Assembly: GCA_009667805.1 (NCBI GenBank)
Contig: CM019071.1
Coordinates: forward strand, 51,226,101-51,290,100
DNA length: 64,000 bases
Reading direction: 5' to 3'
Origin: Leptobrachium leishanense
Taxonomy: Eukaryota; Chordata; Amphibia; Anura; Megophryidae
Both the position numbers and the translations under genes were made by a program. Position 1 is the first letter of the stretch. Every line of letters begins with the position of its first letter. This document shows, in pieces, positions 7,305 to 60,066 of the stretch. Under the pieces are notes generated by a model. That model saw only the letters and a program-made list of their open reading frames with translations. It did not search any database and was not told the origin of the DNA.

Positions 7305-8250
7305 AGCGGGGTGCACACAGCAATAAAACCCACAGAAACGTGCGCGGTGTATGAGCGTATCCAAGCAACACACAGCAATAAAACCGACAGAAACGTGCGC
7401 AGTGTATGAGCATATCCGAGCAACACACAGCAATAAAACCCACAGAAACGTGCGCTGTGTATGAGCATATCCGAGCGACACACAGCAATAAAACACACAG
7501 AAACGTGCTCTGTGTATGAACATATCCAAGCAACACACAGCAATAAAACCCACAGAAACGTGCGCTGTGTATGAGCATATCCGAGCAACACACAGCAATA
7601 AAACCCACAGAAACGTGCGCTGTGTATGAGCATATCCGAGCGACACACAGCAATAAAACCCACAGAAACGTGCGCTGTGTATGAGCATATCCGAGCGACA
7701 CAGAGCAATAAAACCCACAGAAACGTGCTCTGTGTATGAACATATCCGAGCAACACACAGCAATAAAACCCACAGAAACGTGCGCTGTGTATGAGCATAT
7801 CCGAGCAACACACAGCAATAAAACCCACAGAAACGTGCGCTGTGTATGAGCATATCCGAGCAACACACAGCAGTAAAACCCACAGAAACGTGCGCTGTGT
7901 ATGAGCATATCCGAGCGACACACAGCAATAAAACCCACAGAAACGTGCTCTGAGTATGAACATATCCGAGCGACACACAGCAATAAAACCCACAGAAACG
8001 TGCGCTGTGTATGAGCATATCGAGCAACACACAGCAATAAAACCCACAGAAACGTGCACTGTGTATGAGCATATCCGAGCAACACACAGCAATAAAACCC
8101 ACAGAAACGTGCGCTGTGTATGAGCATATCCGAGCAACACACAGCAATAAAACCCATAGAAACGTGCGCTGTGTATGAGCATATCCGAGCAACACACACA
8201 GCAATAAAACCCACAGAAACATGCGCTGTGTATGAGCATATCTGAGCTAG
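7305..8250. repeat. 55-bp minisatellite, about 17 copies
   Basis: Unit contains CACAGCAATAAAACCCACAG and TGCGCTGTGTATGAGCATAT. Since 55 is not a multiple of three and the unit lacks minus-strand stops, all three minus frames stay open for more than 300 codons. These are not genes. Confidence 0.93.
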
Positions 8251-14829: not shown

Positions 14830-14906
14830 TGCAATTCTGGCATATTATCATCATTGTATTGGGGGGAGTCCTCGTCCTCCTTTTAACCCTGAACGTGCTG
14901 TATTGT
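14830..14906 (+). CDS. Gene A exon 3: transmembrane helix
   Basis: Acceptor TTTTCTTTCAG ends at 14829 and donor GTGAGT starts at 14907. The exon starts in phase 1; after the split first codon it reads QFWH, then IIIIVLGGVLVLLLTLNVLY and C. It has the same 77-nt length, phases and boundaries as 43991-44067, with conservative changes (I/L, A/G, L/V). A large hAT (3796-14678) sits just upstream in the intron; the same position in copy B is empty. Confidence 0.78.
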
Positions 14907-23900: not shown

Positions 23901-24386
23901 ATTTCAATGTAAAAAATATTCCCAGTTTTTATTAAATTTATTCAAGTTTTCTTTTCACTTGCAGCAAAAAGTCTGTTGTTTTAGTTTTTCTAAAACAAGA
24001 CTTTTTTTTATTTCCTTCAGTCTGGCTGCGTTCGGCAGGGGCTCTCCTTGGTGCTGAAACCTATTAGTATATATATATACGTGTATATATATATTCGTAT
24101 TTGTGGGGGAAAGTATTAAATGTATGAAGTCACTCCTGTTTGTTCCATGTATTCTCTATATCACTACCTGCAATAAAATACAGTTATTGAGACACTATCA
24201 CCTAGCTGTAAGAACGTTATCAACCTTCTCTCCTTCAATGTCTCTCCTCTGCAGGTCTGGGCAAAGCCATGTGCCAGTAACAGTGTGCAGACCCCTACCA
24301 TACCTGCCCAGGAAGGAAGAGGATCCGCACCTGGCAATGAATACACAGTGATAGATCGACTATACGACACTGTATTAAACACATAG
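14830..24386 (+). CDS. Mucin-like membrane protein, copy A (3' part only)
   Basis: Two exons, 14830-14906 and 24255-24386, are the duplicates of exons 3 and 4 of gene B. The signal-peptide and mucin exons are not in the window and would lie to its left. The intervening intron aligns with the copy B intron in blocks (for example 16490-16575 with 45290-45370, and 17135-17440 with 45371-45640). It is longer because of a MITE at 16576, a palindromic element with a Tc1 inside at 18089-20761, and a hAT derivative at 20994. Both exons are open with intact splice sites, so the gene is probably functional if its 5' end exists. The protein family is not one I can name. Confidence 0.65.
15222..15982. 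mobile_element. Palindromic-ended MITE (GGGTTATTCAAAG family), copy 1
   Basis: Left end GGGGTTATTTAAAG, right end CTTTGAATAACCCTG. Copy B lacks it at the matching point (near 44730), so it inserted after the duplication. Non-coding. A 3-bp duplication (GAA) is possible. Confidence 0.65.
15983..16575. other. Gene A intron 3, block shared with copy B
   Basis: Aligns with 44735-45370 of the other copy. No additional exon is supported: candidate frames between AG and GT dinucleotides hit stops in at least one copy. Confidence 0.55.
16576..17126 (+). mobile_element. hAT MITE, GTGCAC family, copy 2
   Basis: 8-bp duplication CTTGCTGG (16568-16575, 17127-17134). Begins TAGGGATGTGCG and ends GGTGCACAAGCCTA. 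Copy B has one uninterrupted CTTGCTGG near 45360, an empty site. Confidence 0.92.
17127..18088. other. Gene A intron 3, block shared with copy B
   Basis: Aligns with 45363-46125. Contains a 138-bp foldback repeat at 17815-17952 that copy B lacks. No coding exon recognised. Confidence 0.5.
17815..17952. mobile_element. Short foldback MITE
   Basis: Begins CAGGGGTCTCAAACTC and ends with the near complement, TTTGAGGTCCCTG. Absent from copy B near 45970. A relative with the same ends sits at about 47800-47930. Confidence 0.6.
18474..20118 (+). mobile_element. Tc1-like transposon 1
   Basis: 1645 bp between TA duplications (18472-18473, 20119-20120). Long terminal inverted repeats of about 215 bp (18474-18695 and 19900-20118) begin CAGTCAGGTCCATAAATATT. 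Contains one transposase pseudogene. Confidence 0.93.
18832..19867 (+). pseudogene. Tc1-like transposase 1, frameshifted
   Basis: Cut-and-paste DDE transposase. From ATG 18832: a paired-like helix-turn-helix DNA-binding half (MRSKELSLSVKQAII ... GRPRKTT), then the catalytic domain with WTDETK, GGGSVMAW, DKDPKHTAK and [11 protein letters not shown], ending FATKY. First and second Asp and the final Glu are present. A 1-nt deletion near 19612 ends the frame early, and a second near 19727 breaks the tail. With only two lesions this is a fairly young copy. Confidence 0.9.
20130..20298 (+). mobile_element. L2-like LINE 3' tail
   Basis: GAGTTCCCACGGGAATAGGG through GCGCTTTATAAATAAA to a TAA run. 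Only the 3' end is present. Lies directly after Tc1 copy 1. Confidence 0.75.
20994..23507. mobile_element. hAT deletion derivative
   Basis: 8-bp duplication CTTCAGAC (20986-20993, 23508-23515); copy B shows the single CTTCAGAC near 46338. Left part (to about 21835) matches the non-coding end of the 3796-14678 hAT; right end is GCTCATCCCTA. The middle (21840-23230) is unrelated, with a hairpin at 22569-22701. No transposase. Confidence 0.85.
22569..22701. repeat. Long near-perfect hairpin 1
   Basis: Arms of about 60 bp around an AT loop. Left arm contains CATTTGGCTGATCCCTCCAG and the right arm its complement. Ends in C and G runs. Confidence 0.88.
23508..24254. other. Gene A intron 3, distal part, with MITE start
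   Basis: A hAT-type terminus (TAGACATGTGCAC) begins at 23565 after TATAAC; copy B lacks it near 47520. Its right end was not found. 24110-24254 again aligns with copy B (48235-48367) up to the acceptor. Confidence 0.5.
24255..24386 (+). CDS. Gene A exon 4: cytoplasmic tail and stop
   Basis: Acceptor TCTCCTCTGCAG ends at 24254. Phase 0 gives VWAKPCASNSV...SAPGNEYTVIDRLYDTVLNT with TAG at 24384. The AKP, PGNEYT, LYD and VLNT blocks match the copy B tail. The middle is shorter: gaps of two and four codons, all in frame. Two YxxPhi motifs occur here (YTVI and YDTV). Whole-codon gaps and a kept C-terminus suggest selection on the protein. Confidence 0.78.
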   Translation, partial: VWAKPCASNSVQTPTIPAQEGRGSAPGNEYTVIDRLYDTVLNT

Positions 24387-24485
24387 GATTTATCGATTTG
24401 ATTCTGGAAAGACCCAAAGACACCACGGCTGGTGCATCGGAGACTTCAGCGAAACCATGTGAGAGGGATTTCTCTTGTTCTTGAC

Positions 24486-26325: not shown

Positions 26326-26640
26326 ATGGCTACGTCTTCGCTGACAATGAGGTTATAGCACCATGAAGAAAGGAGCCGCAGAGCTATGATTTTCTTCTCA
26401 CTCATAACGTACAAAAATATTTATTTTTATTTATTTTTTAAACGGCAGGTTGTTACGATTTTCTTCTTACTTGGCAACATTTTATTGATTCTTCACATGT
26501 CTTTGTATATATAACTGTTCTCTATACCGTATCTGGATACTATTTTTGAGGCGTCGATTTTCATGCTGCTGTATCAGTGTTCACAATACATATGTATTAG
26601 AGCTCTATAAGCTTCATGAAGGCTTTGAATGGAGACATTA
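26326..26640 (+). other. Gene A distal 3'UTR; native poly(A) signal degraded
   Basis: Aligns with 48620-48940 of copy B. Where copy B has ATTAATAAAGC, this copy reads GTATTAGAGC, so the hexamer is lost. An AATAAA at 26229-26234 inside the LTR-like insertion just upstream may replace it. Confidence 0.55.
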
Positions 26641-26817
26641 AACCATTGAACAAATAATTACATATTTGTGCTTGTTAAAAAATATATATAATATATACAA
26701 AGGGTGTCCATAAAGTCTATTTACAATTTCAAACATTTATTCCAAAGGCAAATGAAAAGACAGATAAGTGAAAATTATTACAAAATGAGACGTATATATT
26801 TAAGTTTTTTGCCTCAT

Positions 26818-31013: not shown

Positions 31014-31083
31014 ATGAGAACCGGACCCTATAAACCAATCCCCAGCTTTCTGCTGCTCCTATACCTGCTCTATGACATCACAG
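31014..31083 (+). CDS. Gene B exon 1: signal peptide
   Basis: The ATG at 31014 opens 23 codons plus one base. A short basic start (MRTGPYKP) is followed by a hydrophobic core ([10 protein letters not shown]) and DITG, as in a secretory signal peptide. The exon ends ACAG with a strong donor, GTGAGT, at 31084. Phase 1 matches the mucin exon: the leftover G plus CT restores an Ala codon. Cleavage near residues 23-24 is plausible. No in-frame upstream ATG is needed. Confidence 0.68.
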
Positions 31084-34000
31084 GTGAGTGACGCGAGCAA
31101 TTCATAGAATAATAAACAGCAGATTAACATTCACTGAGAATACAATACAGCCGACACACTCCAACACAACACAACGGACACACTCCAACACAACAGAATA
31201 CAATACAGCCGACACACTCCAACACAACACAACACAACACAATACAGCGAACACACTCCAACACAACACAACACAATACAGCCGACACACTCCAACACAA
31301 CACAATACAGCCGACACACTCCAACACAACATAACACAATACAGCCGACACACTCCAACACAACACAACACAATACAATACAGCCGACACACTCCAACAC
31401 AACACAACACAGCCGACACACTCCAACACAACACAATACAGCCGACACACTCCAACACAACACAACACAATACAGCCAACACACTCCAACACAACACAAT
31501 ACAGCCGACACACTCCAACACAACACAATACAGCCGACACACTCCAACACAACACAACACAGCGAACACACTCCAACACAACACAGCGGACACACTCCAA
31601 CACAACACAATACAGCCGACACACTCCAACACAACACAATACCATACAGCTGACACACTCCAACACAATACAATACAATACAATACAGCAGACACACTCC
31701 AACACAACACAACACAATACAGCGGACACACTCCAACACAACACAATAGAGAGGACACACTCCAACACAACACAATTCCACATATTTTGGGTATTAAAGG
31801 TAATAAAAGAGCCACTTAATTTTAGCACTTTATGAATACAACACTTTATAATATTGCACTTTAAAATATATTAGGGACGCACTTCTAATAACATATATCC
31901 ATCGGGTATATTTCTTTATATTGAGGAGCAAGACTGCACAATACACTAATAAGACGTCATGATTCTATCACAACAAAAGGATAAGTCCTAATATTAATTG
32001 CACATATTTTTGGGTATTAAAGTTAATACGAGTCACCTAATTTTAGCACTTTATGACTACAGCACTTTATAAATATTGCACTTCAAAATAGATTAGGGAT
32101 GCACTTCTAATATCATATATCCATCGGCCATATTTCTTTATATTGAGGAGTAAGACTGCACAATACATTAACAATACGATATGTAAGTTTTTAAAAATTC
32201 ATTACCATGGGCCCTATATATGATTTTCTGCATATTTTGAGATATATGTAATAATTTAATAATGGGATTAAATAATTTATAATATGCACTTTATTGTAGT
32301 TCATTTAATAAGAGGATGGTTTTTAATATAAATAGTACATGAATTAGTCACTAATTGAGGATATCACAAGTTATTTTAAGCACTTCAATAATACAGCACT
32401 TTAAACACTTTAACAATGGAAATAACACATTATGATACAGCGAATATTTTAAACAATATTCTTAATAATATATATATGTATTTACATTCCCATACAGGGG
32501 AGTTGGATCCTACAGTATTCATTGAATAAGCCTTTTTCCGTATATTTGAAAGTAAGATTGTACCAGCAATTAATAACATGATAGGGAGAATTTTTAATCA
32601 TAAGTTTTTATGAAATACCATTCATGTACTAATCATATATAGAGTACCCTATCTAGGAGTAATGAGGATATAGTACATCGAACGTTATATTAGGGCCATA
32701 TATACAGAAATGCATTTTGTGCATACATTAGACATCCCCCATATGAGGTAGAATTGGGGAAGATTATGGGATTGTCGAGTAAGTTTTCTTTTTTTTTTTA
32801 ATTAAAGTTTTTATTGAGAAATATGCTAAACAGTAACAATTATTAATATTCCCCTGAATACAGAGGCAGAACATTTCCTCAGTTTCATCATTATAAAGTC
32901 AGTAAATAATAAAAAGAAAGGGGGGAGATAGTGAACTGAAAAAAGATAAAGATATAGATATAGATAGATATAGGGGCTGCCCAGGCCCCTATAAAGACAG
33001 ATTAAAAAAAGAGAGGGAGGGAGAGGGAGAGGCTCTTACAGAATATTAAACATAACCAGTATCTGTGGAGTGGATCTACGAATCTCACTATGACCCACAT
33101 GTCTGCCATCAGTGCCCCAGAAAATGAGTGATAAAGGGCTATAAAGATAAATCATTCTGCAGTATGTCCATCTGTATCCGACCATCACCCATTTGGGCAA
33201 TCCAAGGGGACCAGGTGTTATAATATGAGGGGAGAGTATGTGAAGAGATGGCCGTGAGTTTGTCCATTAAGCATACGTCCTGAATTTTAGGTGAAAGGCG
33301 TGTGAATGAAGGAGCCCGTGGGCAATTCTAGCTTTCCACCAGGACCCTACGTGCCGCCAGTGTCATTTTAGCAAGGAGTTTATTCTCTTGTCTGGTCAGA
33401 TCCTGCAATGGTCGAGATAATAAAAAGGCCCAGGGATCCATGGGAATGTCTTTGGATAAGACTGCAATCGCCAGAGTGTGAGTTTGTGACCAAAAAGTCT
33501 TCAGTGTGGGGCATTCCCACCACATATGAATGTAGGTGCCGCGAGCTCCACACCCTCTCCAGCAGGAGTCCGGGGTCCCAGGAGACATTCAAGACAGTTG
33601 GACCAGTGTAACATACCACCTAAAAATTGTCTTTATCAGTTTTCCTGATGGGTGGTGCATACGGATACCGACCTCATGGATTCCCATATATCCGCCCAGT
33701 CTTCTGCATCCAGAGACTCTCCAAGATCTGCTTCCCAGGCCGCCACATATCGGAGTGTCTTCCAGTCCAGAATGGTCGTTAAAGAGCGATATAGAGTGGA
33801 TATCAATCCCCTCGGGTAGGAGCCGGCTTGACATAGACGCTCGAAGGGTGTAAGGGGATTTAAGGCCGCCTCCTTGATGAATCGTTGGGTTGCAAAAGCT
33901 CTCAGTTGGAAGTATGGTAAAGGATTGGTACTTGCTCTTGAGCTAGATAGTACAGGATCGTTTCGATCTATAAAGATTCCTCCGGGAAATAATTGATACA

Positions 34001-37000
34001 AGTGGCGTATTGTAGTACCCATCCATCCGTCCTCTGCCCTGGCGTTGTAGCCAGGCAAAAAATCTTTGTTACGGAGCACCGGGGATAAAGTAGAAGGGAA
34101 GGAGGTAAGGTCACATTTAGTTGCGAGTTTGTCCCAAAGACGAATGGAATTCAATATAACCGGGCAAGTAGTTCGCAGAAGGGGTCTTTGTAGTTTAGGT
34201 AGCCAGATCCAGAGGTGGGGTGATCAGGGTGCATAAGAGCTCGTTCCAAGTCCACCCAGCGGCGTAGGCCCATTGGTGAATGCCAGGCCATGATCTGGGC
34301 CAGTTGTGCAGCATAATAGTAAGAAAATAGGCATGGGAGGCCCAGACCCCTGCATCCTTTGGTCGATAAAGGGTCGCCCGTGCTATCCGATGTCTTTTGC
34401 CCTGCCATATGAAGTGGTCAATGGTGGATTGTAAGAGTCGTATATCCTCTGAGGGGAGGGCGCAAGGCAGAGCCTGAAAAAAGAAGAGTAATCGAGGCAA
34501 AACATTCATCTTAATGCAATGTACCCTCCCCACCCACGAAATTGCGTACTTAGACCAAGATTCTAGATCTTTTTTCAGTTGAGAGAACATAGGGGGGAAA
34601 TTTTTATCATATAGGTCCCTAGGGTTAGATGGCAGTGCAATCCCCAAATAGTCAATGGAGGTGGGGGAAACTCGAATGGGATATGCCCCCCGGATGGTAT
34701 CCAGATCCCCCGGGGTCATGTGTGTGGCCACCGCCTCTGATTTGGTGATATTCACCTTGTATCCCGAAAGTCTAGCAAATTCATCGAGTCGTCGCATGAC
34801 CGCCGGGAGGGAGGAGAGAGGTTGTGTCAAGGAGAGTAATATATCATCAGCGTAAACCGAGAGTTTGTATTCCTGATACCCCAACCGAAAACCCACAATA
34901 AGTGGGTCCTTTCTAAGGTGTTGAAGCAGAGGCTCCAAAAACAGTGCGAATAAAGCCGGTGACAGGGGACACCCCTGCCTAGTGCCGTTACATATCGGAA
35001 AAGGGAGTGGGTCTGTCCCTGAGATTGTACTCTGAGCTGTCGGCATAGAGTATAGAGCCTGTATAGCACGAACAAAGGGGGGAGGGAAACCTAGGTGAGA
35101 TAGGAGGGTGAACAGGAATGGCTATTCTGCTCTGTCAAAGGCTTTTTCTGCGTCCAATGACAGGAAGAGAGAGGGAGTGTTTCTAGAGGAGGCCAGCCAT
35201 AGAAGATCTGCAGATCTCCTAGTGTTTTCATAGGCCTGCCTACCCAGTATAAAGCCTACTTGGTCTGGATGGATTAGGGTGCCCATAATTAGATCAAGTC
35301 TTTTAGATAGTATTTTAGTGAACAGTTTAAGGTCTGTATTTATGAGGGATATGGGGCGATAATTACCTACTAAGTGCTTGTCTTTGCCAGGTTTGGGAAT
35401 AAGGGCAATGGATGCTAAAAGAGAGTCAGCATGCAGTTTTCCTCCTTCCAATAGGTTGTTAAACATCGACAATAATTGAGGGCCCAAGATTCCGGAATGC
35501 GATTTATAATAATGATAAGTAAACCCGTCAGGGCCTGGGGCTTTATGCGGTTTCATAGATTTTAATGCTTCATGGAGTTCCTCCTCCGTCACTAGGGACG
35601 AAAGGGGCTCGAGGCTCGAGTCCGGTAGGGACGGTAGGGATGCATCGGCTAGGTATTGCCTGATTTCCCCACAGAGTATTTCATTGGCGGGAGTATGGGT
35701 AGGGGTATGATCATACAGAAGTAACGTGTAAATGTATCCCTGATGGCGGTCGGAGTAGTTATCATCCCTAATTGAGGTAACTGCCTGAAACTTGGGGCGG
35801 GGCTTGAGTAGGCGTGCCAGGGGTATCCATTTTGTTAGCTCGACTATAATAGCGTTGTCTGGACCATAATAAAGAGCGCCCTACATCATCTAGAAATAGC
35901 CGATTGAGCGCCATGCGTGTTTGACTGAGAGTTGTGAAGGAATCTGGGTTCGGATGTGATTTATGTGCCATTTCCAAGCGCCGTAATTTATGTTGGAGGG
36001 AAATTATCTCCTCCATCTTCAATTTTTTATGGTGCGCCGCTAGGCTAAGGAGGGTCCCCCGTATCACCGGCTTGTGGGCTGCCCATAGCGTCTGCTTAGA
36101 GATGTCTGGGGTGTCATTATTCGCAAAGTAATCCGCTAGAACCGTCGATACAGAGTCAGAAACCCCGGCTTATCCAGGAGAAGAGGGTCTAGGCGCCATC
36201 TCCTCCCTACATATGGGGAAAGAGGGCGCAGCGTGACGGACACATCTGTGTGGTCCGACCACGTGATAGATCCAATATCCGAGGAAAGGACGTTCGAGAT
36301 GCAGTCCGAGGAGGTCAATATATAATCTATGCGGGAGTATGAGTCATGTACCAGAGAATAAAAAGTATAGTCCCTACAAGAAGGGTGATGAGCCCCTCCA
36401 TACATCAATCAGACCCAGGCGGTTCACAAAACTATAAAATTGCTTGTCCTGAGATGAGGGCGTCAGTGCTTGTCTGCCGTCACGGGGGTCGGATCTGTCC
36501 ACCGGGGGGCATAATGTAGTGTTAAAATGGCCCCCAAGTATAATACGTCCCTGGGCATGTGATAAAATAAAGTCAGCCGTCTCCGCCCAAAACTTAGAGT
36601 CAGAGCTATTTGGGCCATACAATGCAATCAGCGTAAATTGTTGTGCGGAGGCGGATCCCTGAATAAGTATGCATCTCCCAGCGTCATCTGTGTGTACCCC
36701 TTCCACTACAAAAGGGCAGGAATTGCGTAGCAGTACTGCCACCCCATTACATTTAGGGATTGCACAAGACATATAAACCCTGGAATAAGTGGGGTCAGAT
36801 AGACGGAAGGCCGCCAGTTTAGGAATCCTGGTTTCCAGTATCAGAGCTATATCTACAGATTTTCGTTTTAGGTCCCGAAATAACATACGCCGTTTTCTGG
36901 GAGAGTTGAGGCCTTTCACATTAAGAGAAAGCACTTTCACATTAGCCATTACATAAGTATATAAGAGAGATCCACGGGGTGTTCCGTCCCACCGCCTCAC

Positions 37001-40000
37001 CCCCGGAGGGCACAGAGCCAGTGGGGCGGCCAGGACCAGAACACCATGCAGAGAGCCGTGAAGGGGGGAGGGGTGGGGGAAGAGGTAAAGAATTGGAGAA
37101 TAGAGTATGAGAGAGCATAAAGATTAGCGAGGAGAAAGTGAAGTCCATGCTGGGCAGGCACGTATAAAACAAAGAATCCTTCCGAGTGGGGATACCGGAG
37201 GGGAGGAGAGCGGGGGTGGAGAGAAGGAGGAAAAGGGGTACGCCAGTGGCGAATAGGAAGAGCATGAGGATCAACAGTCCACGCTTACTCCCACCGCTAA
37301 AGAGCGGGAACCCGCCCAATAACCCATGAGCTCACTTGTGGCTCCCCAACATCATAAACATATAACATCAGATGTATAAAACCCATAACTTAGAACCGTA
37401 ACTGTAATATTAATATCTAATAACTTTAAACCTTATTGATTCTCGCCTGCCGCGAGAGAATACCCATCCCGACCTGGTGCAGGGTCAGGAAGTATAAGCC
37501 AGAGGCCCTGAAGTAGTTAAGGCCAGTTCTGGAGTGGAAATAAGGCCCATCATTCAGTCCCCCGGGGTCAACCAGTCCTGTGCCAAACGTGGTAGGGGTT
37601 GCGGGGGTGTGAGGTCTGCTAGAGAGGGGGGGAAATCGGTAGATCCACTGCACGGAGGAGATCCTTAGCCTGATATAAATAAGAATACGCCTGAGAACGG
37701 TTGTTCTTGAAGATGATAATCTTGAAAGGAAAGCCCCAGGCGTAGCGGATATCGTTGCGACGCAGTATCTCAGTGACCTCCCTCCATTTCCGGCGTCTGG
37801 CAAGTGTAGAAGGTGCGAGATCTTGAAAAAATAATATTGCGGACTCCTCATATTTTGCTTCCTGGGTGCGAGCAGCCCTGAGGAGGGCATCTTTAGTGTT
37901 ATAATAATGAAAACGGGCAATCACATCCCGGGGTGTAGTAGTCTTATCACGACGCGGCCCCAGGGCCCTATGTACTCTATCCAGGAGTAGACGCTGCGGC
38001 GGAACATCAGGGATCAAGCATTTTACTATACCCAAAAAAGTGTCCTGAAGCTCATCCGGTGAAACCGATTCGGGAAGGCCCCGCAGTCGGACATTGGTAC
38101 GTCTGGAGCGATTTGAGAGGTCCTCCAGGGATTCCTCCAGATACTGCACCCGGTGTTCCATATTCTCTGCGTGTCCCGCTAGGTCATTGCAGTATTCCAC
38201 CATCTTCCCGGCCTGCTCTTCTAGGTGCGCCGTGCGTTCCCCCACCGCCTGTATATCTGCTGATAGGGTTCGCGTGGTCCTCTCCAGCTCGGCAGTTATA
38301 AATGCCTGGAGGCCTTTAATATCAGTCCTTGATGCTGGGTTGGAGTCTGCAGAGGCCGCCTCGTGGTCGCGGGATTGCGGGGATTCAGAACGGGCGCCAT
38401 CTTGGATTGGGCCCTCCGAGCGCTGCCGCACCGCAAAAATTGGCGCGTCTCTTTATTTATTTTTTTTCGGGGTCCGCGACATGATGGTCGACATCTCCTA
38501 CCCCCTCTGGTGGTCTTTGGCAGGCGAGAAGTGCTGTTAAAGGGGAGATTTCAGCGGGAGTAGCGGGAGCTCATCTAGACCACGACCGCTTCCATCGCTG
38601 GCTCGGCTCCGCCCCCCGTAAGTTTGCATTTTAACCATGTGGATATGTATGTTTTTTTTTCCGCTGTTGAGGGTGTAAATCTGCCCGGGGGCCACTGAGG
38701 GTGAATGCACAAAAGTTTCTGCAAAGAGAAAGGAGGTGAACAACTAGCGCGATCAGAGATCCAGAGTAACACACGCAGTGAAATGCATGCAGCTTCTGGG
38801 AAAATGGCGTCACACGCAGAATGGAACGCACACGACAACAGAACGCATGCGCAAAATGGCGGCGCCCATCTCATACCGAATATGGTGTGGCTTGAGGCAT
38901 GGAACGCACGCCGATCACAAGATTGAGAACATGTGGGGACATTTTATTAATTTAAAGATACTATATAAGCATTATGTGAAAGCCAGCCTGTAAACCAGCT
39001 GAGGAAGCCATTACATTTGGCGAAACGCGTCCTTGTCATCTGGCAGTGCCAGTAAGATTGTTTATTTTGCTTTTTATATTTTAATTTTTTTTTTATTGAG
39101 CTCAAAATCCCCGGTGTTCTGAAGTTCGAGAGGGTTTTTTGGACTTAACCTGTTAAGTCCATAGGCGCACACACTAAGAGCTTGGTTTAAAGCTCCACCA
39201 AATGTGAGTTGGCAATCTACATTATACTTTATGATATTGAATCTGTAAAGATCTACACAAGAAAGTCTTCTTGTTTCTCTATATTTTCATGCATACTCCA
39301 TATGAGAAGAGATTTCCTTTACTATAAGGTGTGGGTCACCTTATAAGTGGAGAAGCTAAGCACCCAAAGGCGTTTACCCACTCAGAGCCAGTGTCCGGGC
39401 TCTATATTTGTGAGTGGAAACATTGCATAATAGTTTTAATTAATTGTGTATAAAACACTCTGCACTATTATACTGTTTGCTTCTTTTTATGTGATCCATA
39501 TGGACAAAATGAATTAAGAGAACCGCCAGCTCCCCAAAAGCGACTACCATCGCGCCACCAGATACGTACCATTACTATTATTGTCTACACTGGTTTGGGG
39601 GGAACCACTGAATTTCTGGTTTGGCATTGGTTAATTGGTGGCGGTACAAGTTTTGGGCGCCTGTCCATTTTTCTTTATTCGGCAGCTCAATGTTCGGCGC
39701 ACTTTGGGGACCACACGGTGAATAGTGTATCCACACACGGTCGGCGAAATGGAATCACTGAAGCGCACCGAACGAGAAAGCAATGAAATTTCACTGACAT
39801 GTTTGTGCTTTCCGAGTTATCCCTTAACAGTTTGTGATCATTTACAGTTTGTGAGTGATAAAAGTATCATGTGTGCAGCCCCTAAAATACAGGCTGTGCA
39901 CATAAATGCTGAACTCTTCAACTCTCAAATCTTCTCTATGATTTTGTTGTTTGTAAATAGATCAACATATTACAAAGCAGTTCTGGGCAGGTGTGTTTTT

Positions 40001-43000
40001 ATGTCAGCATCTGTTTAGCTTTTCTTCATGCTCTCTCTATCCCTCACTGTATTTACCTTATCAGTAAAACTCCATTGTTACAGCTCCACCAACAACATCA
40101 GCTCAATCAACAGCTTCCGCATCTACTGTGGCTCTACTAGCTACTACAGCTCCACCAAATACCGCAGCGCCAGAAAATACAGCTCCACTAGGAGCTACAG
40201 CTTCACCAACAACTATAGCTCCAGTGACTACTGCAGCACCAACAACAACTACAGCTCCACTGACTACGGCAGCACCAACAACACCAGTAATGCCAGCGTC
40301 TCCAATAACAATTTCACAGACTACCATAGCTTTATGGATTACTACAGCTTCAACAAACCCTGCAATTATACAAACTACAACAGCTTCACAGACTACTACA
40401 GCTTCAACAAACCCTGCAATTATACAAACTACAACAGCTTCACAGACAACTACAGCTTCAACAACCTCTGCAAATATACTAACTCCAACAGCTTCACAGA
40501 CTACTACAGCTTCAACAACCTCTGCAAATATACTAACTACAACAGCTTCACAGACATCTACAGCTTCAACAACCTCTGCAAATATACTAACTACAACAGC
40601 TTCGCAGACTACTACAGCTTCAACAACCTCTGCAAATATACTAACTACAACAGCTTCGCAGACTACTACAGCTTCAACAACCTCTGCAAATATACTAACT
40701 ACAACAGCTTCGCAGACTACTACAGCTTCAACAACCTCTGCAAATATACTAACTACAACAGCTTCGCAGACTACTACAGCTTCAACAACCTCTGCAAATA
40801 TACTAACTACAACAGCTTCACAGACTACTACAGCTTTAACAACCACTTCAACTACAGCTACAACAACCACTCCAACTACACCAACTACAGCTACAACAAC
40901 CACTCCAACTACACCCACTACAGCTACAACAACCATTCCAACTACACCAACTACAGCTACAACAACCACTCCAACTACAGCCACCACAGCTACAACAACC
41001 ACTCCAACTACACCAACTAGAGCTTCAACAACCATTTCAACTACACCAACTACAGCTACAACAATCACTCCAACTACACCCACTACAGCTACAACAACCA
41101 CACCAACTAGAGCTTCAACAACCATTTCAACTACACCAACTACAGCTACAAAAAACACTTCAACTACATCAACTACAGCTACAACAACCACTCCAACTAC
41201 ACCAACTAGAACTACAACAACCACTCCAACTACACCAACTACAGCTACAAAAAACACTTCAACTACATCAACTACAGCTTCAACAACCATTTCAACTACA
41301 CGGAAAAGTACTGCAACAAGCACAGCTGCTACAAAGACTGCGACTAGCATTGCTGATCAAACAAGTAAGACCCTTTAGATGTCTTAAAAATAGCTAAATA
41401 TTTTAAGTAAAAGTTGGGTTTTAAATATTTCCTGTGTTTTAGAAAAAGAGAAGCAAAGACATGAGCTCCTATTCCAACAGAGCCGGTAACAGGAAGCCGG
41501 GAAGGGAAACATCAGCGTGAGTCGATAACCCTTACTGGGTATTTCAAAGAGAATCGAAAAGTCACTGCACGTTCGGTGACTTTTCGTTCTCTTCAATTCA
41601 GTTCGCTTTGCTGATCCCATTTCGGTGACCCTGCGGTGTATTCAGCGAGCACCACAGGGTCCCAGAATTGCAGGGAAAGGCTGCCGCAAACCCGACGAAA
41701 ACGAACCGCAAAACCCGGCGAATGCACGCCGAAAACCTGAACAAACATCTGGATTAACCAGCCGAAACGCCGGAAAAACCTGAGCAGGAGCCGATCACAC
41801 GCATTGCAGCCGCCGGAAAAAGCCGACACCGCAGACGAAGGAGGTGAATAAATTAGAAAAACAGTTTGCTTGAATGTTTGAAAAGTGAAACGCTGTTTGC
41901 AAAGAAACTACTGAGCGAAAATGTCTGAAATTTACAAATGATCCAATGAATGATAATAAAAAGGGCTGTTACAGAAAAAATAAGTAAAGTTAAAAAAAAA
42001 ATAGGACTTTTTTTATAAAATATAAAAATCCAGAAAAATGCTTAAAAAAATCTATAAATAAAGAGACTCTTTACTGCAGAATATTATAATAAACGGTTTA
42101 TTAGATACTGGATTAAAACGGGAATATTTTTAACATTGAAGCCTATGGGATTCTCCTGAATAAATTTGCCGAATTAAACCACCGAATGGCAGGGCATTAG
42201 GGGAACCTTTCACTGCTGGTTTGTGTTCTCTGAATAGCCGAAGCAGTGCTTTTTATGGGGATTTCACTGCCCTCGAACAGGCACCGAACAGGCACCGTAT
42301 GTGCAGGCAATTCGCCAGGATTTGGCGAATTGCCTGCTCTCTGGATAGCCGAATGGCCAAGAAAGGTAACCGAAAGCTGATTTTCAGCGTTCGGTTACCT
42401 TCTCCAGCTATTCGGAGCTCTTTGGATAACCCTGATAGAGGCTCGCAGTTACTGGCTCTATTACGACCGAGACAATGTAGTAGCAGCTCAAGTCACAATG
42501 TTAGGGTGCTGCTGATCAGTACAGGCAGCAGCGCCATGTACTACCACTTGTAAAGTCACCTGGAGTCCACAGGAGTCCAGCTCATGGCTCCTCTCCAAAA
42601 ACATAATGCCTTTTTTCTATCAAAACATATTGACCTGTTGAGAAGTCCCGCTAGCAGACGGATACGAGGCAGCTGTGAGTAAATTTACTCAAATGGCAAC
42701 AATTGTCAAACGTTATGGATACTTCAAACACATCCCCTACTTATTTGAAAGGGTTCAATGACCACATGTGCGCTGGCCGCATGGAGACGTAAACATGGCT
42801 GTTTACCATAGATCCTGCTTGGAATGTGCGATCCATGTTTATCAAACATCTCCAAGAGAAAACAGGTTATTTATAAACAGGCTTATTCACTAAGCACCAT
42901 ATTGCACCGACTGGGGAATCTCACCGTATCTGCATCTTCAGGGCAGTTTGTTTATTAACTAAGCTGTATCTTCGCCAAATCCAGGGGAATTGACAGCAGA

Positions 43001-46000
43001 ATACGGTGCATTTTGGCGAATTGCCTGCACGTACGGTGCTGTTCGACGGCAGTGAAATCCCCCATAGAGAAGCAATGGTTAATCTATTCAGACACACCGA
43101 ACAGCAGAGAAAAGTTACCGAAATGCCCTGCTGTTCGGTGGTTTCATTCAGCAGATTTATTCAGGCGAATCCCATAGGCTTCAATGTTAAATATATTCCT
43201 ATTTTAATCCAATATCTATTAAACTGTTTATTATTTTATTCTGCAGTAAAAAGTCTCTTTATTTATAGATTTTTTAGGATCTTTTAGGCATTTTTGGTGA
43301 TTTTTTTGGAAAAAAAAATTCTGTTTTTTTTTTAATCGTCTTTTCTTTTTTCTGTAACATCCTTTTTATTATCATTCATTGGATCGTATGTGTAAATTCC
43401 AGCCATTTTCATTCAGTAGTTCTTTTGCAAACAGCGTTTCAATTTTGACACTTTCAAGTGTATTGTGTCTTTTTTTATACCCCGTTCGTCTGCTTGTCGG
43501 CTTTTTCCGGCGGCTGCTCTGCGCTGTGATTGGCGGCTCGTTGGCTTTTAGCGACATGATTTGCGTGTTTTTTGCGACAGTTCCGGCGGGTTTTCGGTGT
43601 GGTTTTTGGCAGTTGCGGCAGGTTTTCCATGCACTCCAGGGACTCTGCCGAATTCACCGCAGGTTGCGGAACTTTGATTCCCCCAAGTGCAGGGAAGGAG
43701 AGGGCACTGAAATGTTAGCAGTGCTCTCTGAATAACCCTGACAGTGTTTCTATTGACGAATATCCGAACAAATGATGAAAAACAAACAGTAAATAATAAT
43801 AATATTTATTTTTGTATTTATTTTATTCCAAACACCTGCACATTAATAAACAGGAAATTATGGGATGTTTCTCTCTACAAAGTATCGCTGTTATGTGTTT
43901 ATTGTCTGTCTTCTAGAATGTAGATATGTTATAATATATTCCTGAGTAACGCACATACATTAACCCTAACCCTCCCTGGTTTTCTCGCAGTGCCATATTG
44001 GGCTATTATCATCATCGTAATAGCATCAGTCCTCATCCTCCTGTTAACCCTGAACTTGCTGTATTGTGTGAGTATTTATCACTTCTTCCTCGTTAATATC
44101 CTGTACGTTTCGTTGTTACCCGTGTGAGCTGTGCCAGAGATAGACACTATTACTATTTACTAGGGATGTGCGTTTCGGGTTTTCGGATGCGGCCGAATTT
44201 CCGAAAATTTTTAGATCCGAAAACGGCAGATGCGAAAAGTTTTCCGAGCCGAAACGAAATATTTTCGGAATTTTCGAATGGACTTGAAATGTGTCAAATC
44301 GAAATTTATTGCTTTGAAACGAGGAGAACAGACGTTCCGAAAAAATGAAAATTTCCGAACTTACGAAAAGTCGATACAAAAAACGAGCCAAGTGACACGA
44401 AAATACGAAAAATGGTCGAAATTCCGAAAACATGTACAATTCCGAAAACGAAAATTTCCGAAATCACGAAAGGTCGATACAAAAAACGAGCTAAGTGACA
44501 CGAATACGAAAAATGGTCGATATTCCGAAAAAAAAAAGTACACGAAAAACGAATCGAGCCGAACCGAATCGAAACAGAAATCGGTCGAAACGAGCCGAAT
44601 CTAAAAGTTTAAAAATCCGAAAAATCGAATCGAACCGGAAAAAAAAATCGGTGCACAAGCCTACTATTTACTTTTTCTTTACAATTTATTAAAGGGACGC
44701 TCTACTCATCCTGACCACTTAACAGTCATAAAGCAGTCAGGATGAGAAGCGTGCCCCCCTTCCCCCCCCCAGCTCCACTGATCCTGAGAAATCGCAAGTT
44801 GAAGTGGAGGAATTTCCTCCATCCCCACCGAGCAGTCAGGTTTTTGAATTTCCCGGTTGCCGTTCACCAGATCGATTACAAGTGATGGCACCCTCGGAGA
44901 CCAATCGCTGTAGCGAGCGTTCTCAGAGAAGCAGCGATGGATCATATCTGTGCATGCGCGTGCAGCTCCGATCCATCGCTCTGCGCAGGCGTTATGGAGC
45001 TTGTGTACGGAAAGTGTGCGAGTCCCGTAACGCAGCGTGTATTGCAGTTCCCACACTAAGCAAGTTGTATAAGAGCATAAACTGCACAGAAAAGCACCAT
45101 GAACTTACAGGTTCAGAAGTCCATGAGATGAAGTGGAGTAGCAGAGCAACGAGGGGTAAATGGGGAGGAAAGTCATCTAAATTTTTTTTAAAAAATAATT
45201 GGGCAGAGGCTGTCAACAGGATCTGACCAATTACTTAAGGGGGGCAAAGGGGGGAGAGCTATATTTTTAATAGTGTCTCGCTTTAAGACAATGTGGACGT
45301 TATCTCAGTCTTCCTGTTCCCTGCTGGTCCGGCCGGTTGCCATTCAGTTGACGGTGAACTTGCTGGCAAAGCTTTGAGCTTCCTGTTCGCACAACTGAAA
45401 GGTAACCGAGCGAATCCAACGCGGTCAAAACCAATAACCATCCCGAGGCTAATTACTTGTGTGTGTATCTAAGAATGAGAAACTGAAAAGAATCCGTGTG
45501 TTCTTCTTTCGACTGGAACTCATTTGCTGCACGCTTGGCTGTGAAAACATTGCGGCTGCAGGATTGGTTAAACTCGATTCTCCCTTGGCAGAGAGTGAAT
45601 TCAATGGATACTATAGGGTTAAAACAAGAGGGCGAGGAAACAAAGTAGTTAACCATTAACCTTTTGCTTTCCCACTCTGTACTACCCTTTCCATTTAAAC
45701 CTTTTACATTCCTTTGAAAACATTTTAAATCCAGCACTGGTCTCCATCTGATCTCTGCAGGATGTGCCTTTTTTTCAGCTCAGAGTGTCATGTGACTGCA
45801 GGGAGGGCAGGACACTTCACCCAATCCTGTGGCTCTCTCTGCAGAAAGCAGTGATGCCATTGGATAAGGCTGGTTCCCAAAGGAAACTTGTGCTGCGGGC
45901 TAAGCCCATGCATCTGGATAGCTGAATCAGCCCCCTGAGCCTCTATTCAAATGGGGGAGAGGGAGCAGGGGACCGTAGATTGCCGGTTCAAAAGCATCAC

Positions 46001-48517
46001 AGGAGAAAAGTGCCTGACAAATGAGGGAAGACACCAGAACACGGAAACGCGCGTTCATCGCTTCATTAAAAGACGCTGAAGTCTTAAACACGGTAAACTG
46101 GGAATTGACTCTTTCGTCCAAGTCATAGTCATTAAGCAAGGTTTTAATTTGTCACGGCACGCTATAAGGTTTGACTCATTTTTTAATAAAAATTACCAAA
46201 ACCTTTGCAAGGGCACGGGGACGCTCAGTCCTGTTAATTTTATTTATTTATTTTATAATTCTTTATTTATGATTTTATTACAGAAGCATCAAAGCTAGAA
46301 TAATATTACAAATATCATCATTCGTCATCCACAGCTTCAGACAGATAATATCCAGTAGACATGTGCATTCGTTTTAGTACTAAAACGATTTAGTCCGAAT
46401 TTTGGGATAATTTAGTTTTCATATGACTCAAGAGAAACGAAACTGCTCAGTACAAAAAACGAAAGAAACTAAAATAAAATGCACTACATTTTAGTTTCAG
46501 TCCTTTTTGTGATAATACATTGATGAGTGAAGGAGACCAGCAATGAAGAGTGCAACATCCGAAGTTCTGCACCCTGCACATGCCAATGCAGTAGGATGTT
46601 CTATACAGAGAGGGGCATTAATTAATTCAGGAGGATGTTCTATACATTATACAGAGAGGGGTATTCATTTATGAAGGTGGATGTTGTATACATTATACAG
46701 AGAGGGGTATTAATTAATGCAGGAGGATGTTCTATACATTATACAGATAGGGGTATTAATTAATTCAGGAGGATGTTCTTATACATTATACAGAGAGGGG
46801 TATTAATGAATGCAGGAGGATATTATCTACATTATACAGAGAGGGGTATTAATTAATGCAGGAGGATGTTCTAAACATTATACAGAGAGGGAGCCTTTTA
46901 TTTAGCCCTTTAAATCCAGTGGCTGTGAGCGCTGAGATCGGCTGCTTGTTATATTATCTTTCATTACAATGTATCAGTCTCAGCTGTTACAGTAAATGAC
47001 TGTAACAGCGCTCAGAGTTTCAGTAAAACAATGAAATAATATTGTTATAACCTCTTATATATAAAAATATTATTTATTAGTTTTACTGAAACTCTGAGGC
47101 TGTGATGAGCAGTAGTCAGTTACTGTAACAGCTTTGCCTGACACGGGGCAGTATTACAATGTTGGTGCTAACTTAACCTGTTGTAAACTGAAAACCTCCA
47201 TAGGCTATAATGGCTCTGGGAAGTTTATAACAGCTCTGGTTAAGTTAGCACCAACTATGTAACATGGCCCACATTGTACTGAGAGAGAGAGATACTGTAA
47301 CGAGCAGCGATCTCAGCCCTCTCAGGAGCCATTACAATAGTAATTGTATCCACTGGTTTTCGGATGAAATTAATTTTCATACTAAAGAACTGAAAACGAA
47401 TTTCTTAAGCAACTAAATAAATTGCATTTTAGTACTAATCCATTAGTTCAAAACGAAATTTTGTGCTGTGCACATGTCTAATATCCAGTAAACAAAGGCG
47501 CATGAAAGCAAAACAAGTTATAACATTATATTAAAGGTAAACACCTGTGGGAGGAGGCATTGGGTAAATAAAACCCTGTTGCCCTTTAGTTCAATTAGTT
47601 CAGCATAGGAGGGGTTAATTCGAGGAAAAGGAGAAAAAAAAAACATAATGGGGGCGATAAAAACATTGATAAGGGTGGTGAGCATCCCAGTAAATCAGGT
47701 GTGATTTACTCCCAGTCCCAGCTCCCCTCTAAGCTCCGACAGGAAGTCAGGGGGCTGCTTAATTGACCACATGGACAAGGTTGCCATAGGGCCAAGCCGG
47801 GCAGCAAACTCAAGCCCCCCAGATGGTACCGAACTACAACTCTCATGTTTCCCTGGCTATCATTATATTGAAGGAATTGTGGGAATTGTAGGCATCAACA
47901 TTTGTGGGGGGCTTGAGTTTGACACCCCTGGTGTAGGTTGCCATCGGTGCAGCACTCCCACAATAGACCCGTAATCCCTCGCCCTCTGAGAAGGAAGAAA
48001 AATAATAATAATTGATTATATATAAAATCATGTTTATAATTGGAGAAGATATTTACATATCCCAGCGATTCAGAGAACTGCTGTACCCATAGAGCTCATA
48101 TGCAACATTTCCCACACGCAGCAAGGAACTCTGGGTAAGATATGCAAATGAGGTCTCCATTGTCCCACTTTTTTACATCCAGGATCTGTTTCATACAGAA
48201 CCCTCATATATATACAGTATATATAAATATATATAAAAAGTATGACGTCGCTCCTGTTTGTAACATGTATTCTGTGTATCACTACCTGCAATAAAATATA
48301 TAGTAACTGAGACACTATCACCTGCTGTAAGAACGTCATGAACCTCCTCAATGTCTTTCCTCTGCAGATCTTTTTCCGGGCAAAGCCATCTTCCAGTTAC
48401 AATATGCAGCCCCCTACCAAATTAAGGAAAATACCCGCCGAGGAAGAAGGAGGTCCCGTGCCTGGCAATGAATACACACAGCCAAGTGATCTATACGACA
48501 TTGTACTAAATACATAG
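31014..48517 (+). CDS. Mucin-like type I membrane protein, copy B (4 exons, 525 aa)
   Basis: Spliced gene assembled from exons 31014-31083, 40084-41364, 43991-44067 and 48368-48517. Junction phases are 1, 1 and 0, and the joined 1578 nt is open to a TAG. Predicted layout: signal peptide (about residues 1-23), an ectodomain made only of Thr/Ser/Pro/Ala-rich sequence (24-451), a transmembrane helix (about 454-479) and a 46-residue cytoplasmic tail. The ectodomain has no N-glycosylation sequon that I can see, so a dense O-glycan rod at the cell surface is the expected form. This is the general architecture of sialomucins and of the mucin part of TIM-type receptors, but I saw no Ig-like exon in intron 1. 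I do not recognise a named orthologue. The last two exons are duplicated at 14830-14906 and 24255-24386. Exon linkage is inferred from phase, order and the second copy, not from a transcript. Confidence 0.72.
31130..31775. repeat. 29-bp minisatellite in gene B intron 1
   Basis: Variable units around CACACTCCAACACAACACAA with TACAGCCGA, starting about 50 bp after the exon 1 donor. It holds all frames open on both strands, giving false 215-245-codon frames. Confidence 0.9.
31780..32787. repeat. AT-rich intron with a diverged two-unit tandem repeat
   Basis: 31780-31955 and 31998-32185 are two diverged copies (shared TTTGGGTATTAAAG, ATATCCATCGG and ATATTGAGGAG). The rest, to 32787, is AT-rich with no exon signature. 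Confidence 0.6.
33328..36951 (-). pseudogene. L1 ORF2: endonuclease and reverse transcriptase
   Basis: From ATG 36951: AP-endonuclease ([44 protein letters not shown]), linker, then reverse transcriptase ([60 protein letters not shown]) and a C-terminal region with a Cys/His/Trp cluster ([20 protein letters not shown]). The usual GGDFN is GGHFN, removing a catalytic Asp. Frames shift near 36390, 36140, 35600-35760, 35120 and 34190, so it is dead. Length and motif order fit a full L1 ORF2. Confidence 0.85.
37619..38482 (-). pseudogene. L1 ORF1 protein
   Basis: RNA-binding chaperone of L1 retrotransposition. From the likely ATG at 38482 (MSRTPKKNK) an early stop follows, then 270 open codons. 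These hold a coiled coil ([20 protein letters not shown] ...), the L1 ORF1 core ([14 protein letters not shown] ... [11 protein letters not shown]) and a C-terminal domain ([19 protein letters not shown]). One in-frame TAA near the start is the main visible lesion. Confidence 0.82.
38617..40083. other. Gene B intron 1, distal part
   Basis: Mixed repeat-derived sequence. 38990-39050 has a GGCGAAACGCGTCC motif I associate with frog repeats; 39655-39790 resembles the palindromic-ended MITEs. No Ig-like exon (no Cys...Trp...DxAxYxC pattern) seen. Ends in the exon 2 acceptor. Confidence 0.45.
40084..41364 (+). CDS. Gene B exon 2: mucin (PTS) repeat domain
   Basis: The 1281-nt exon lies between a pyrimidine-rich tract ending TTACAG (40078-40083) and a donor A|GTAAGA at 41365, and is phase 1 at both ends. 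It encodes residues 24-451. After an Ala/Pro/Thr lead come about nine 18-residue units (about 115-276). The first two have NPAIIQ and the next seven SANIL, each followed by [12 protein letters not shown] or a close variant. A second block of about 10-residue [14 protein letters not shown] units follows, then a non-repetitive end ([11 protein letters not shown]). The 54-bp and 30-bp DNA units are multiples of three, so copy-number change keeps the frame. The other frames are also open here, but only this one continues to the signal and TM exons. Confidence 0.7.
41535..42434. mobile_element. Palindromic-ended MITE, copy 4
   Basis: Begins CTGGGTATTTCAAAGAG and ends TTTGGATAACCCTG; flanking TTA and ATA. 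In intron 2 of gene B. Opposite orientation to copies 3 and 7. Non-coding. Confidence 0.65.
42435..42877. other. Gene B intron 2, no exon seen
   Basis: Single-copy-looking sequence between two MITEs. No repeat family, splice-flanked open frame or domain recognised. Confidence 0.4.
42878..43740. mobile_element. Palindromic-ended MITE, copy 5
   Basis: Begins CAGGCTTATTCAC and ends CTCTGAATAACCCTG. Immediately followed by intron sequence shared with copy A (ACAGTGTTTCTATTGA at 43741 and 3690), where copy A has no element. Confidence 0.65.
43991..44067 (+). CDS. Gene B exon 3: transmembrane helix
   Basis: Acceptor TTTCTCGCAG ends at 43990 and donor GTGAGT starts at 44068. With the carried-over A the exon reads MPYWA, then [20 protein letters not shown] and C, a typical single membrane span. 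The next exon supplies FFRAK, a basic stop-transfer. The juxtamembrane Cys could be palmitoylated (inference). The exon is 77 nt, the same as the copy A exon, which has the same boundaries. Confidence 0.78.
44161..44663 (+). mobile_element. hAT MITE, GTGCAC family, copy 3
   Basis: 8-bp duplication CTATTTAC (44153-44160, 44664-44671). Begins TAGGGATGTGCG, ends GGTGCACAAGCCTA. In gene B intron 3; the copy A intron carries its own family member at a different site, so these are independent insertions. Confidence 0.92.
44672..46347. other. Gene B intron 3, shared with copy A
   Basis: Aligns block by block with 15100-20993 once copy A insertions are removed. No extra exon found. Confidence 0.55.
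46356..47480. mobile_element. hAT-type MITE with internal tandem repeat
   Basis: 8-bp duplication ATATCCAG (46348-46355, 47481-47488). Begins TAGACATGTGCATTCG and ends GTGCACATGTCTA. Copy A has ATATCCAA uninterrupted near 23520. An internal tandem repeat at 46600-46890 has units around GGATGTTCTATACATTATAC. Confidence 0.88.
47489..48367. other. Gene B intron 3, distal part
   Basis: Contains a foldback repeat at about 47800-47930 (GCAAACTCAAGCC ... GGCTTGAGTTTGACACCCCTG). 48235-48367 aligns with the copy A intron up to the acceptor. Confidence 0.5.
48368..48517 (+). CDS. Gene B exon 4: cytoplasmic tail and stop
   Basis: Acceptor CTTTCCTCTGCAG ends at 48367. Phase 0 reading gives IFFRAKP, a short basic stretch (KLRK), an acidic patch (EEE) and then PGNEYT...DLYDIVLNT with TAG at 48515. 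Tyr512 and Tyr519 lie in blocks kept in copy A. YDIV fits the YxxPhi sorting or SH2-type pattern, but neither tyrosine fits the full ITIM consensus. The exon is six codons longer than its copy A counterpart, with only in-frame gaps. Confidence 0.78.
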   Translation: MFFRAKPSSSYNMQPPTKLRKIPAEEEGGPVPGNEYTQPSDLYDIVLNT

Positions 48518-48920
48518 GATTTATCAATGATTCTGGAAACACCCAATGACACTGCGGGCGGGCCAAAGTAGACTTCTGCGAAACCGAGTCAACTGCTAGG
48601 GAATTCTGTCATTTACGATGACGACTTTGCTGACAATGAGGTCATAGCATCACGAAGAAAAGAGCCACAGAGCTAGGATTTACTTCTCGCCCATAACATG
48701 CAAAAATATTGATATCTAGACTGCAGGTTGCTACAATTTTCTTCTTACTTGGCAACATTTTATTCATTCTTCACATGTCTTTGTATGCTTATAACTCTGT
48801 TCTCTATACTGTATCTGAATACCTTTTCGAGATGTTGATTTTCATGCTGTTGTATCAGTGTTCACAACTAATACATATTTATTAATAAAGCTCTATAAAC
48901 TTCATGAAGGCTTTGAATGG
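48518..48920 (+). other. Gene B 3'UTR with AATAAA
   Basis: Sequence after the stop aligns with the copy A sequence at 24387-24480 and 26326-26640. AATAAA at 48894-48899 is the likely poly(A) signal. The alignment stops near 48990, just before a Tc1-like element. Confidence 0.6.
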
Positions 48921-49007: not shown

Positions 49008-50410
<1,403 letters not shown>

Positions 50411-53516: not shown

Positions 53517-54527
53517 CAAGAGAATGGTACAGGAAGACAAGAGAAGAGGGTGATTACTCTTCACAGGAAGGGCAATGGCTATAAGAAGATTGCAAAGATG
53601 TTAAACATACCAAAGAGACCATAGGAAGCATCATTCGCAAATTCAAGGCAAAGGGCACTGTTGAAACGCTACCTGGTCGTGGCAGAAAGAAGATGCTGAC
53701 TTCGACTGCTGTGCGCTACCTGAAGCGTAGAGTGGAGAAAAGTCCCCGTGTGACTGCTGAGGAACTGAGAAAAGATTTGTCAGATGTGGGTACTGAAGTT
53801 TCAGCTCAGACAATACGGCGCACACTGCGTAATGAAGGCCTCCATGCCAGAACTCCCAGGCGCACCCCCTTGCTGTCTACAAAGAATAAGAAGAGTCGAC
53901 TGCAGTATGCCAAAAGTCATGTGGACAAACCACAGAAGTTTTGGTATAGTGTTCTGTGGACTGATGAAACAAAATTAGAACTGTTTGGGCCCATGGATCA
54001 ACGCTATGTTTGGAGGAGGAAGAACAAGGCCTATGAAGAAAGAACACCTTGCCTACTGTGAAGCATGGCGGGGGGTCAATCATGCTTGGGGCTGTTTTGC
54101 TTCTGCAGGTACAGGGAAGCTTCAGCGTGTGCAAGGTACCATGAATTCTCTTCAGTACCAGGAGATATTGGATGACAATGTGATGCAGTCCGTCACAAAC
54201 CTGAGGCTTGGGAGACGTTGGACCTTTCAACAGGACAATAATCCCAAGCATACCTCCAAGTCCACTAGAGCATGGTTGCAGATTAAAGGCTGGAACATTT
54301 TGGAGTGGCCATCGCAGTCACCTGACTTAAATCCGATTGAGAACCTCTGGTGGGACTTAAAGAAAGCAGTTGCAGTGCGCAAGCCTAAGAATGTGACTGA
54401 ACTGGAGGCTTTTGCCCATGACGAATGGGCGAAGATACCCGTAGATCGCTGCAAGACACTTGTGCCAAGCTATGCTTCACGTTTAAAAGCTGTTATAACT
54501 GTAAAAGGATGTTGTACTAAGTACTAA
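53517..54527 (+). pseudogene. Tc1-like transposase 3, frameshifted
   Basis: From ATG 53517 (MVKSREWYRKTREEG). Early frameshifts follow, then a long open stretch with the DNA-binding region (GRGRKKMLTSTAVRYLKRRV, RTPRRTPLL) and the first catalytic motif WTDETKLELFG. Frames shift near 54045 and 54092. The last frame holds QQDNNPKHTSK and [17 protein letters not shown], ending KGCCTKY. All three catalytic positions survive on paper, but the protein cannot be made. Confidence 0.88.

Positions 54528-60035: not shown

Positions 60036-60066
<31 letters not shown>

Follow-up and report, generated by a model that had tools for sequence, protein, structure and literature searches.

Does a threonine-rich simple repeat in a frog genome conceal an exon of a membrane-protein gene and, if so, to what kind of gene does it belong? 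The question is raised by a 64,000-nucleotide (nt) window of Leptobrachium leishanense DNA (assembly GCA_009667805.1, contig CM019071.1, hereafter C9, positions 51,226,101 to 51,290,100 of the forward strand), for which an earlier note had proposed a four-exon gene, here termed gene A. We find that gene A, as predicted from its sequence, is very probably a real gene. We posit, with a probability of roughly 60%, that it is a protein-coding member of a tandem, fast-changing array of transmembrane (TM) mucins devoid of a SEA domain, with a sorting or docking mechanism centered on a YDIV motif in the tail.

Structure of gene A and its predicted protein

The exon chain of the earlier note was recovered in full: four exons with phases 1, 1 and 0 join into 1578 nt (525 codons and TAG), with standard splice sites at every junction (donors, in order, GTGAGT, GTAAGA and GTGAGT; acceptors ending, in order, in TTACAG, TCGCAG and CTGCAG). 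All four exons, the six splice signals, the start, the stop and the polyadenylation signal are intact. The product combines the parts expected of a transmembrane mucin-like glycoprotein, namely a signal peptide, a long Thr/Ser/Pro repeat exon, one TM span and a cytoplasmic tail, with the signal peptide and the span judged by sequence and hydropathy rather than by a dedicated predictor. The ectodomain of 427 residues contains 200 Thr, 47 Ser, 35 Pro and 67 Ala, along with two N-glycosylation sequons and not a single Cys. Tandem Repeats Finder resolves exon 2 into 54-nt and 33-nt arrays, which accounts for the simple-repeat appearance that had been remarked on. Intron 1 also harbors, on the minus strand at 34198-35880, open reading frames (ORFs) for a reverse transcriptase (RVT_1).

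Neither the full protein nor its TM and tail segment matched a Pfam family at that family's cut-off; the sub-threshold matches, Orf78 (expectation value, E, 0.047), ATP-synt_8 (0.02) and Pox_P21 (0.1), all fell far below it and cover stretches that include the TM span. When the 525 residues were scanned with Pfam, no SEA domain was listed at E up to 1, and solved structures returned only the integrin alpha-1 TM segment (E 1). In the protein database, none of 73 candidates for residues 445-525 matched at E up to 10, nor did any of 5 candidates for a 188-residue shortened form. Across the 264 kb around gene A, the immunoglobulin (Ig) motif Dx(G/A/S)xYxC was absent in a suitable frame except in one low-complexity array, a scan that a motif-less or split IgV could escape, and Pfam matched nothing in 10 of the 18 intronic plus-strand ORFs of gene A (at least 75 residues). 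The idea of an Ig-type exon, whether in intron 1 or anywhere else in the 264 kb, was dropped, as neither the motif nor the Pfam scan gave a credible one. Since there is no Pfam family at cut-off, no protein match and, in the stretches scanned, no Ig motif or domain of any credibility, we take gene A to be most likely a SEA-less transmembrane mucin. No such amphibian family was found described in the literature searched, which had subscription papers outside its scope. The general kind of protein is already known, and the row of genes itself looks unnamed; public annotation may well have given gene A an automatic name. The earlier note, which could not tie the protein to a named family, had overlooked both the tandem array and a partial second copy within this window.

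Paralogues in the window and along the contig

The gene A model is lifted above chance by the homology of its TM exon, its tail exon and its exon-2 borders and by relatives of its tail elsewhere in the genome (E 1.5e-7 and about 1e-3). The paralogues also bear out the earlier reading of its exons as signal peptide, Thr-rich ectodomain, TM span and tail. When the 264 kb were searched with gene A's own exons, a partial copy, gene B, was located 24-29 kb upstream, aligning with the TM exon and flanks at 85% identity over 248 nt and with the tail exon and flanks at 77% identity over 363 nt. Gene B keeps its splice signals, frame and stop, and the blocks of the TM-to-tail intron and the 3' untranslated region (UTR) follow in identical order in both genes, so that gene B is the product of a segmental duplication. 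In addition, the acceptor and donor of exon 2 of gene A align with those of three downstream units (u3, u4 and u5), the donor side modestly (72.5% over 80 nt between gene A and u3). Scanning the 264 kb for TM exons gave 5 plus-strand matches, of which 4 fall in array units, against 4 minus-strand matches, all low-complexity by inspection. The corresponding scan for signal exons gave 4 matches on the plus strand, 2 of them in array units (gene 1, described below, and gene A), and none on the minus strand. This strand control is only indicative, the thresholds having been set with knowledge of the gene A exons and the signal scan having missed the signal exons of u3 and u4.

Table 1. Exons of gene A and of related units (plain numbers, positions in the window; C9, positions on the contig)
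Feature	Position	Strand	Remarks
Gene A, exon 1	31014-31083	+	start codon and signal peptide; ends in phase 1
Gene A, exon 2	40084-41364	+	Thr-rich mucin ectodomain made up of 54-nt and 33-nt arrays; begins and ends in phase 1; both borders alignable with those of u3, u4 and u5
Gene A, exon 3	43991-44067	+	TM span; phase 1 to 0; paralogous exons elsewhere in the window and close to the end of C9
Gene A, exon 4	48368-48517	+	49-residue cytoplasmic tail and stop; YT and YDxVLN common to 4 distinct A-type tails
Gene A, 3'UTR	48518-48889	+	reaches AATAAA at 48884; homologous to 24387-24456 and 26332-26665 on the gene B side
Gene B, TM exon	14830-14906	+	QFWHIIIIVLGGVLVLLLTLNVLYC; phase 1 to 0; homologous to gene A exon 3
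Gene B, tail exon	24255-24386	+	VWAKPCASNSVQTPTIPAQEGRGSAPGNEYTVIDRLYDTVLNT and stop; homologous to gene A exon 4
Gene B, 3'UTR homologue	26332-26665	+	about 1.9 kb past the block that follows the gene B stop codon
u3, u4, u5, Thr-rich exons	C9:51322762, 51369552, 51411665		downstream of the window; align with gene A exon-2 borders
u3, u4, u5, signal exons	C9:51299540, 51361823, 51393069		align with one another; 3-nt insertion/deletion inside the exon
Gene 1, signal exon candidate	C9:51150881		upstream of the window
Gene 1, Thr-rich frame	from C9:51163548		2466 codons
Gene 1, TM exon	C9:51172215
Gene 1, tail exon	C9:51173838		ends in YDSVKIYTRI
A-type tail	C9:153326427		E 1.5e-7
A-type tail with TM exon	C9:153340123 (tail), 153336511 (TM)		TM match weaker (E 9), upheld by alignment
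Gene B copies	C9:153408516/153417898		TM protein identical; one synonymous change in the tail

The 5' side of gene B is less complete. Neither a signal exon nor a mucin exon that convinces was recovered for it: at the first threshold no Thr-rich exon appeared for gene B, and a looser one gave four short, weak Thr/Ser/Pro-rich frames between gene 1 and the gene B TM exon (window positions -43087, -38589, -9252 and 10987). A signal-like exon at window position -36729 is implausible as its 5' exon, and no DNA matching the first two exons of gene A was found for it.

The signal exons of the downstream units u3, u4 and u5 end in ..IT or ..MT at phase 1, followed by a GTGGGT donor, and in u3 (870 codons) and u5 (193 codons) the signal, mucin and TM exons are free of stops and in the same phases as in gene A; the TM exon of u4 lacks 16 nt and does not keep the phase. 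The acceptor initially chosen for the u3 TM exon was abandoned for one 24 nt upstream that u3, u4 and u5 have in common. Genome-wide, the u3 TM exon has 5 matches at E up to 10, of which only u3 and u5 are convincing.

Searching the whole 3.54-Gb genome with the TM and tail of gene A yielded 21 matches at E up to 10. The strong ones are gene A, gene B, the contig-end tails (one with the weaker TM match) and gene B copies of Table 1, and matches on contig C901. Units of the array cover about 0.6 Mb of C9 (50.82 to 51.43 Mb), and a second set, of gene-1 type and then of A type, lies at the very end of the contig, which finishes at 153,420,920; this set may represent either the other haplotype or another array. 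No Thr-rich exon was found in the 9.4 kb upstream of the TM exon at 153.336 Mb, nor any TM or Thr-rich exon in 10 kb for the tail at 153.326 Mb. The matches on C901 have gene B's scores. Parts of the array recur at C9:153270000-153420920 and on C901, C2925 and C1149, gene B being near-identical twice and present a third time on C901 by equal match scores; these repeated parts look like uncollapsed haplotypes or a misjoin.

Upstream of the window, gene 1 resembles gene A in layout, in position and in a YDxV near its end, but not evidently in sequence (best TM match E 0.42). Its 5' Thr-rich stretch is spread over several frames, so that end of the gene may contain a break or a misassembly. Its TM and tail have 15 genome-wide matches at E up to 1, of which 14, including its own two, reach E up to 0.015; these comprise eight tail and six TM matches, distributed over C9 (50.82-51.17 and 153.27-153.28 Mb) and the contigs C2925 and C1149. 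Of the four examined among the seven other tail matches, two are broken, one stays open as far as the shared stop and one reads through it. The three further TM exons examined show gap-free alignments, with both splice signals preserved.

Conservation and divergence of the tail

All four distinct A-type tails (A, B, 153.326 and 153.340 Mb) are open, and all four keep a Y-T and a Y-D-x-V-L-N. Two tail tyrosines had been claimed for gene A, and these two are indeed conserved in the paralogues; the tail has three in total, the first of which (SSSYNM) is not kept throughout. The C-terminal motif reads YDIV in gene A, YDTV in the three other A-type tails and YDSV in gene 1, and the YDIV fits the YxxPhi pattern by sequence. 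In gene A the conserved motifs are N-E-YTQP and D-L-YDIV and in gene B N-E-YTVI and R-L-YDTV, with 3 residues between the motifs. In the DNA alignments, gaps inside the tail exon measure 3, 6, 9 or 12 nt, whereas those of the flanks are 1, 2, 5 and 6 nt long. The 153.336-Mb unit has a TM exon that is shorter by 3 nt. The alignments portray a tail whose frame and tyrosines are kept and whose remainder drifts or diversifies. Positive selection was considered, as nonsynonymous change between A and B exceeds noncoding change (34/154 versus 89/707, Fisher p 0.0034), but it is not claimed because the count over four tails shows no such excess (p 1.0).

Proposed function and competing explanations

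If gene A is a SEA-less mucin, its signal peptide would route the protein into the secretory pathway, the Cys-free Thr-rich repeat exon would, to judge from its composition, form a rod coated with O-glycans, and the single span would anchor it. The YDIV of the tail would then set the surface level through clathrin-adaptor uptake and recycling, and the tail, once phosphorylated, may dock SH2 proteins. Such a protein would presumably be expressed in a barrier or anti-adhesive role.

Several observations weigh against this proposal. The first conserved tyrosine of gene A stands in YTQP, which is not a YxxPhi motif. Purifying selection at the amino-acid level was not detected in either the A-B pair or the four-tail count: nonsynonymous divergence between A and B (dN 0.261) is on a par with synonymous divergence (dS 0.234), and the four tails show 42.5 nonsynonymous changes over 97.4 sites against 7.5 synonymous changes over 31.6 sites (binomial p 0.106). 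In the latter count the nonsynonymous rate equals the noncoding rate (108 changes in 253 noncoding columns, p 1.0), and synonymous change lies below noncoding change (p 0.059). A stop-free frame under drift is, by itself, not improbable (0.23 to 0.40). The tail exons of u3 and u5 were searched for and not found, and several units of the array are broken or devoid of 5' exons. As to the gene model itself, the repeat of exon 2 can be read without stops in other frames as well, so that its length alone is no proof and a long open Thr frame is weak evidence.

The foremost alternative, which we regard as unlikely, is that gene A is a decaying copy, its exon chain inherited from a working ancestor and no longer expressed or functional. 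Amino-acid change as fast as noncoding change, the broken u4, the two broken tails among the four further gene-1-type ones examined and the want of convincing 5' exons in gene B would all fit decay, but the complete set of intact signals in gene A and the open frame and two tyrosines kept in every distinct A-type tail speak against it. The mixture of broken and intact units is as in birth-and-death evolution.

Still harder to sustain is the idea of an immune-type signaling receptor, whose phosphorylated tail would recruit SH2 proteins and whose mucin would be merely a stalk. Phase-1 exons are usual in type I receptors, as the earlier note had remarked; the two conserved tyrosines close to the C-terminus and the tandem birth-and-death array point the same way. 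Against this idea stand the Pfam and Ig-type scans described above, which within their scope furnished no ligand-binding domain, and a comparison with the signaling motifs. An immunoreceptor tyrosine-based inhibitory motif (ITIM) has the form (S/I/V/L)xYxx(I/V/L), and the activating counterpart (ITAM) has two YxxL/I 6-12 residues apart; by these consensuses, the tyrosines of A and B lack the -2 residue of the former and the spacing of the latter.

Only with considerable reservation do we mention a splice-combinatorial system, in which upstream signal and mucin units would also join the orphan TM and tail cassettes downstream (gene B and the 153.336/153.340-Mb pair). These cassettes share the 1-to-0 phase, and were the idea true, one ectodomain would be expressed with different tyrosine tails. 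That the chain was picked by eye from repeats, as the several open frames of the mucin exon and the shortness of its companions might suggest, is contradicted by independent paralogues that repeat its exons, their borders and their phases, and is most improbable.

If our proposal of a mucin array holds, genes of such a build, with three tiny exons and one satellite-like exon, would lie hidden in repeats, and intact and broken units side by side over the 0.6 Mb would constitute a fast-turning set of surface mucins. Such an array would allow the birth and loss of membrane mucins, and pathogen contact at mucosal or skin surfaces, to be tested.

Comparison with known mucin-like proteins

By analogy, the nearest model for the tail would be PARM-1 and the nearest models for the layout MUC21 and the MUC3 cluster. 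In the accessible text of PMC3750824, PARM-1 likewise has a signal peptide, a Ser/Thr/Pro-rich ectodomain, one TM span and a short tail with a tyrosine internalization signal, the YGRL motif; gene A would have its counterpart of this YxxPhi-type signal in YDIV. The same text describes the PARM-1 C-terminus as highly conserved, whereas the gene A tail changes fast and sits in a tandem array. PARM-1 was compared by description only, and no PARM-type family was listed by Pfam for the gene A protein. Pfam does hold a PARM model.

MUC21 (epiglycanin) shares a tandem-repeat mucin domain, a TM span and a tail, and has a described stem domain, as far as the available part of PMC11199685 goes, whereas gene A has no Pfam family at cut-off; no MUC21/MUC22-type family was listed for it. 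The MUC3 cluster (MUC3A, MUC3B, MUC12 and MUC17) likewise lines up genes for membrane mucins whose exon 2 is a long repeat, and chromosome 3 of Xenopus tropicalis carries a tandem of three membrane mucins of SEA type, according to the portion of PMC9578598 at hand. Membrane mucins of the SEA type (MUC1 and the MUC3 cluster) have their SEA domain next to the membrane; in the MUC3 cluster the tail has a PDZ-binding end, and 12 exons make up MUC3A and MUC3B. Gene A, in contrast, has 4 exons, no SEA domain found in the Pfam scan and a tail ending in ..VLNT. Finally, HAVCR/TIM proteins are type I proteins with a mucin domain, a TM span and a tail with a tyrosine site (PMC11592376, in its accessible text). 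They differ in an IgV domain between the signal and mucin exons, which the motif and partial Pfam scans did not find for gene A.

Other elements in the window

No RNA genes were found in the window at Rfam gathering scores, and no tRNA. Fragments of Tc1/mariner-type transposases (Pfam HTH_Tnp_Tc3_2, HTH_SB and DDE_3) lie at 18577-19617, 49231-50019 and 53979-54524, and a BED zinc finger ORF on the minus strand at 9534-10601 presumably belongs to a hAT-type transposon. The stretch 58215-62311 is a simple repeat of some 4.1 kb, rich in pyrimidines (CT-rich, periods 8 to 38) and mostly open in the three plus-strand frames. At 7314-8247 stands a 55-bp tandem repeat with 17 copies at 95%, a diverged form of which (about 67-70% in most matches) recurs, inverted, at C9:153317443-153317780.

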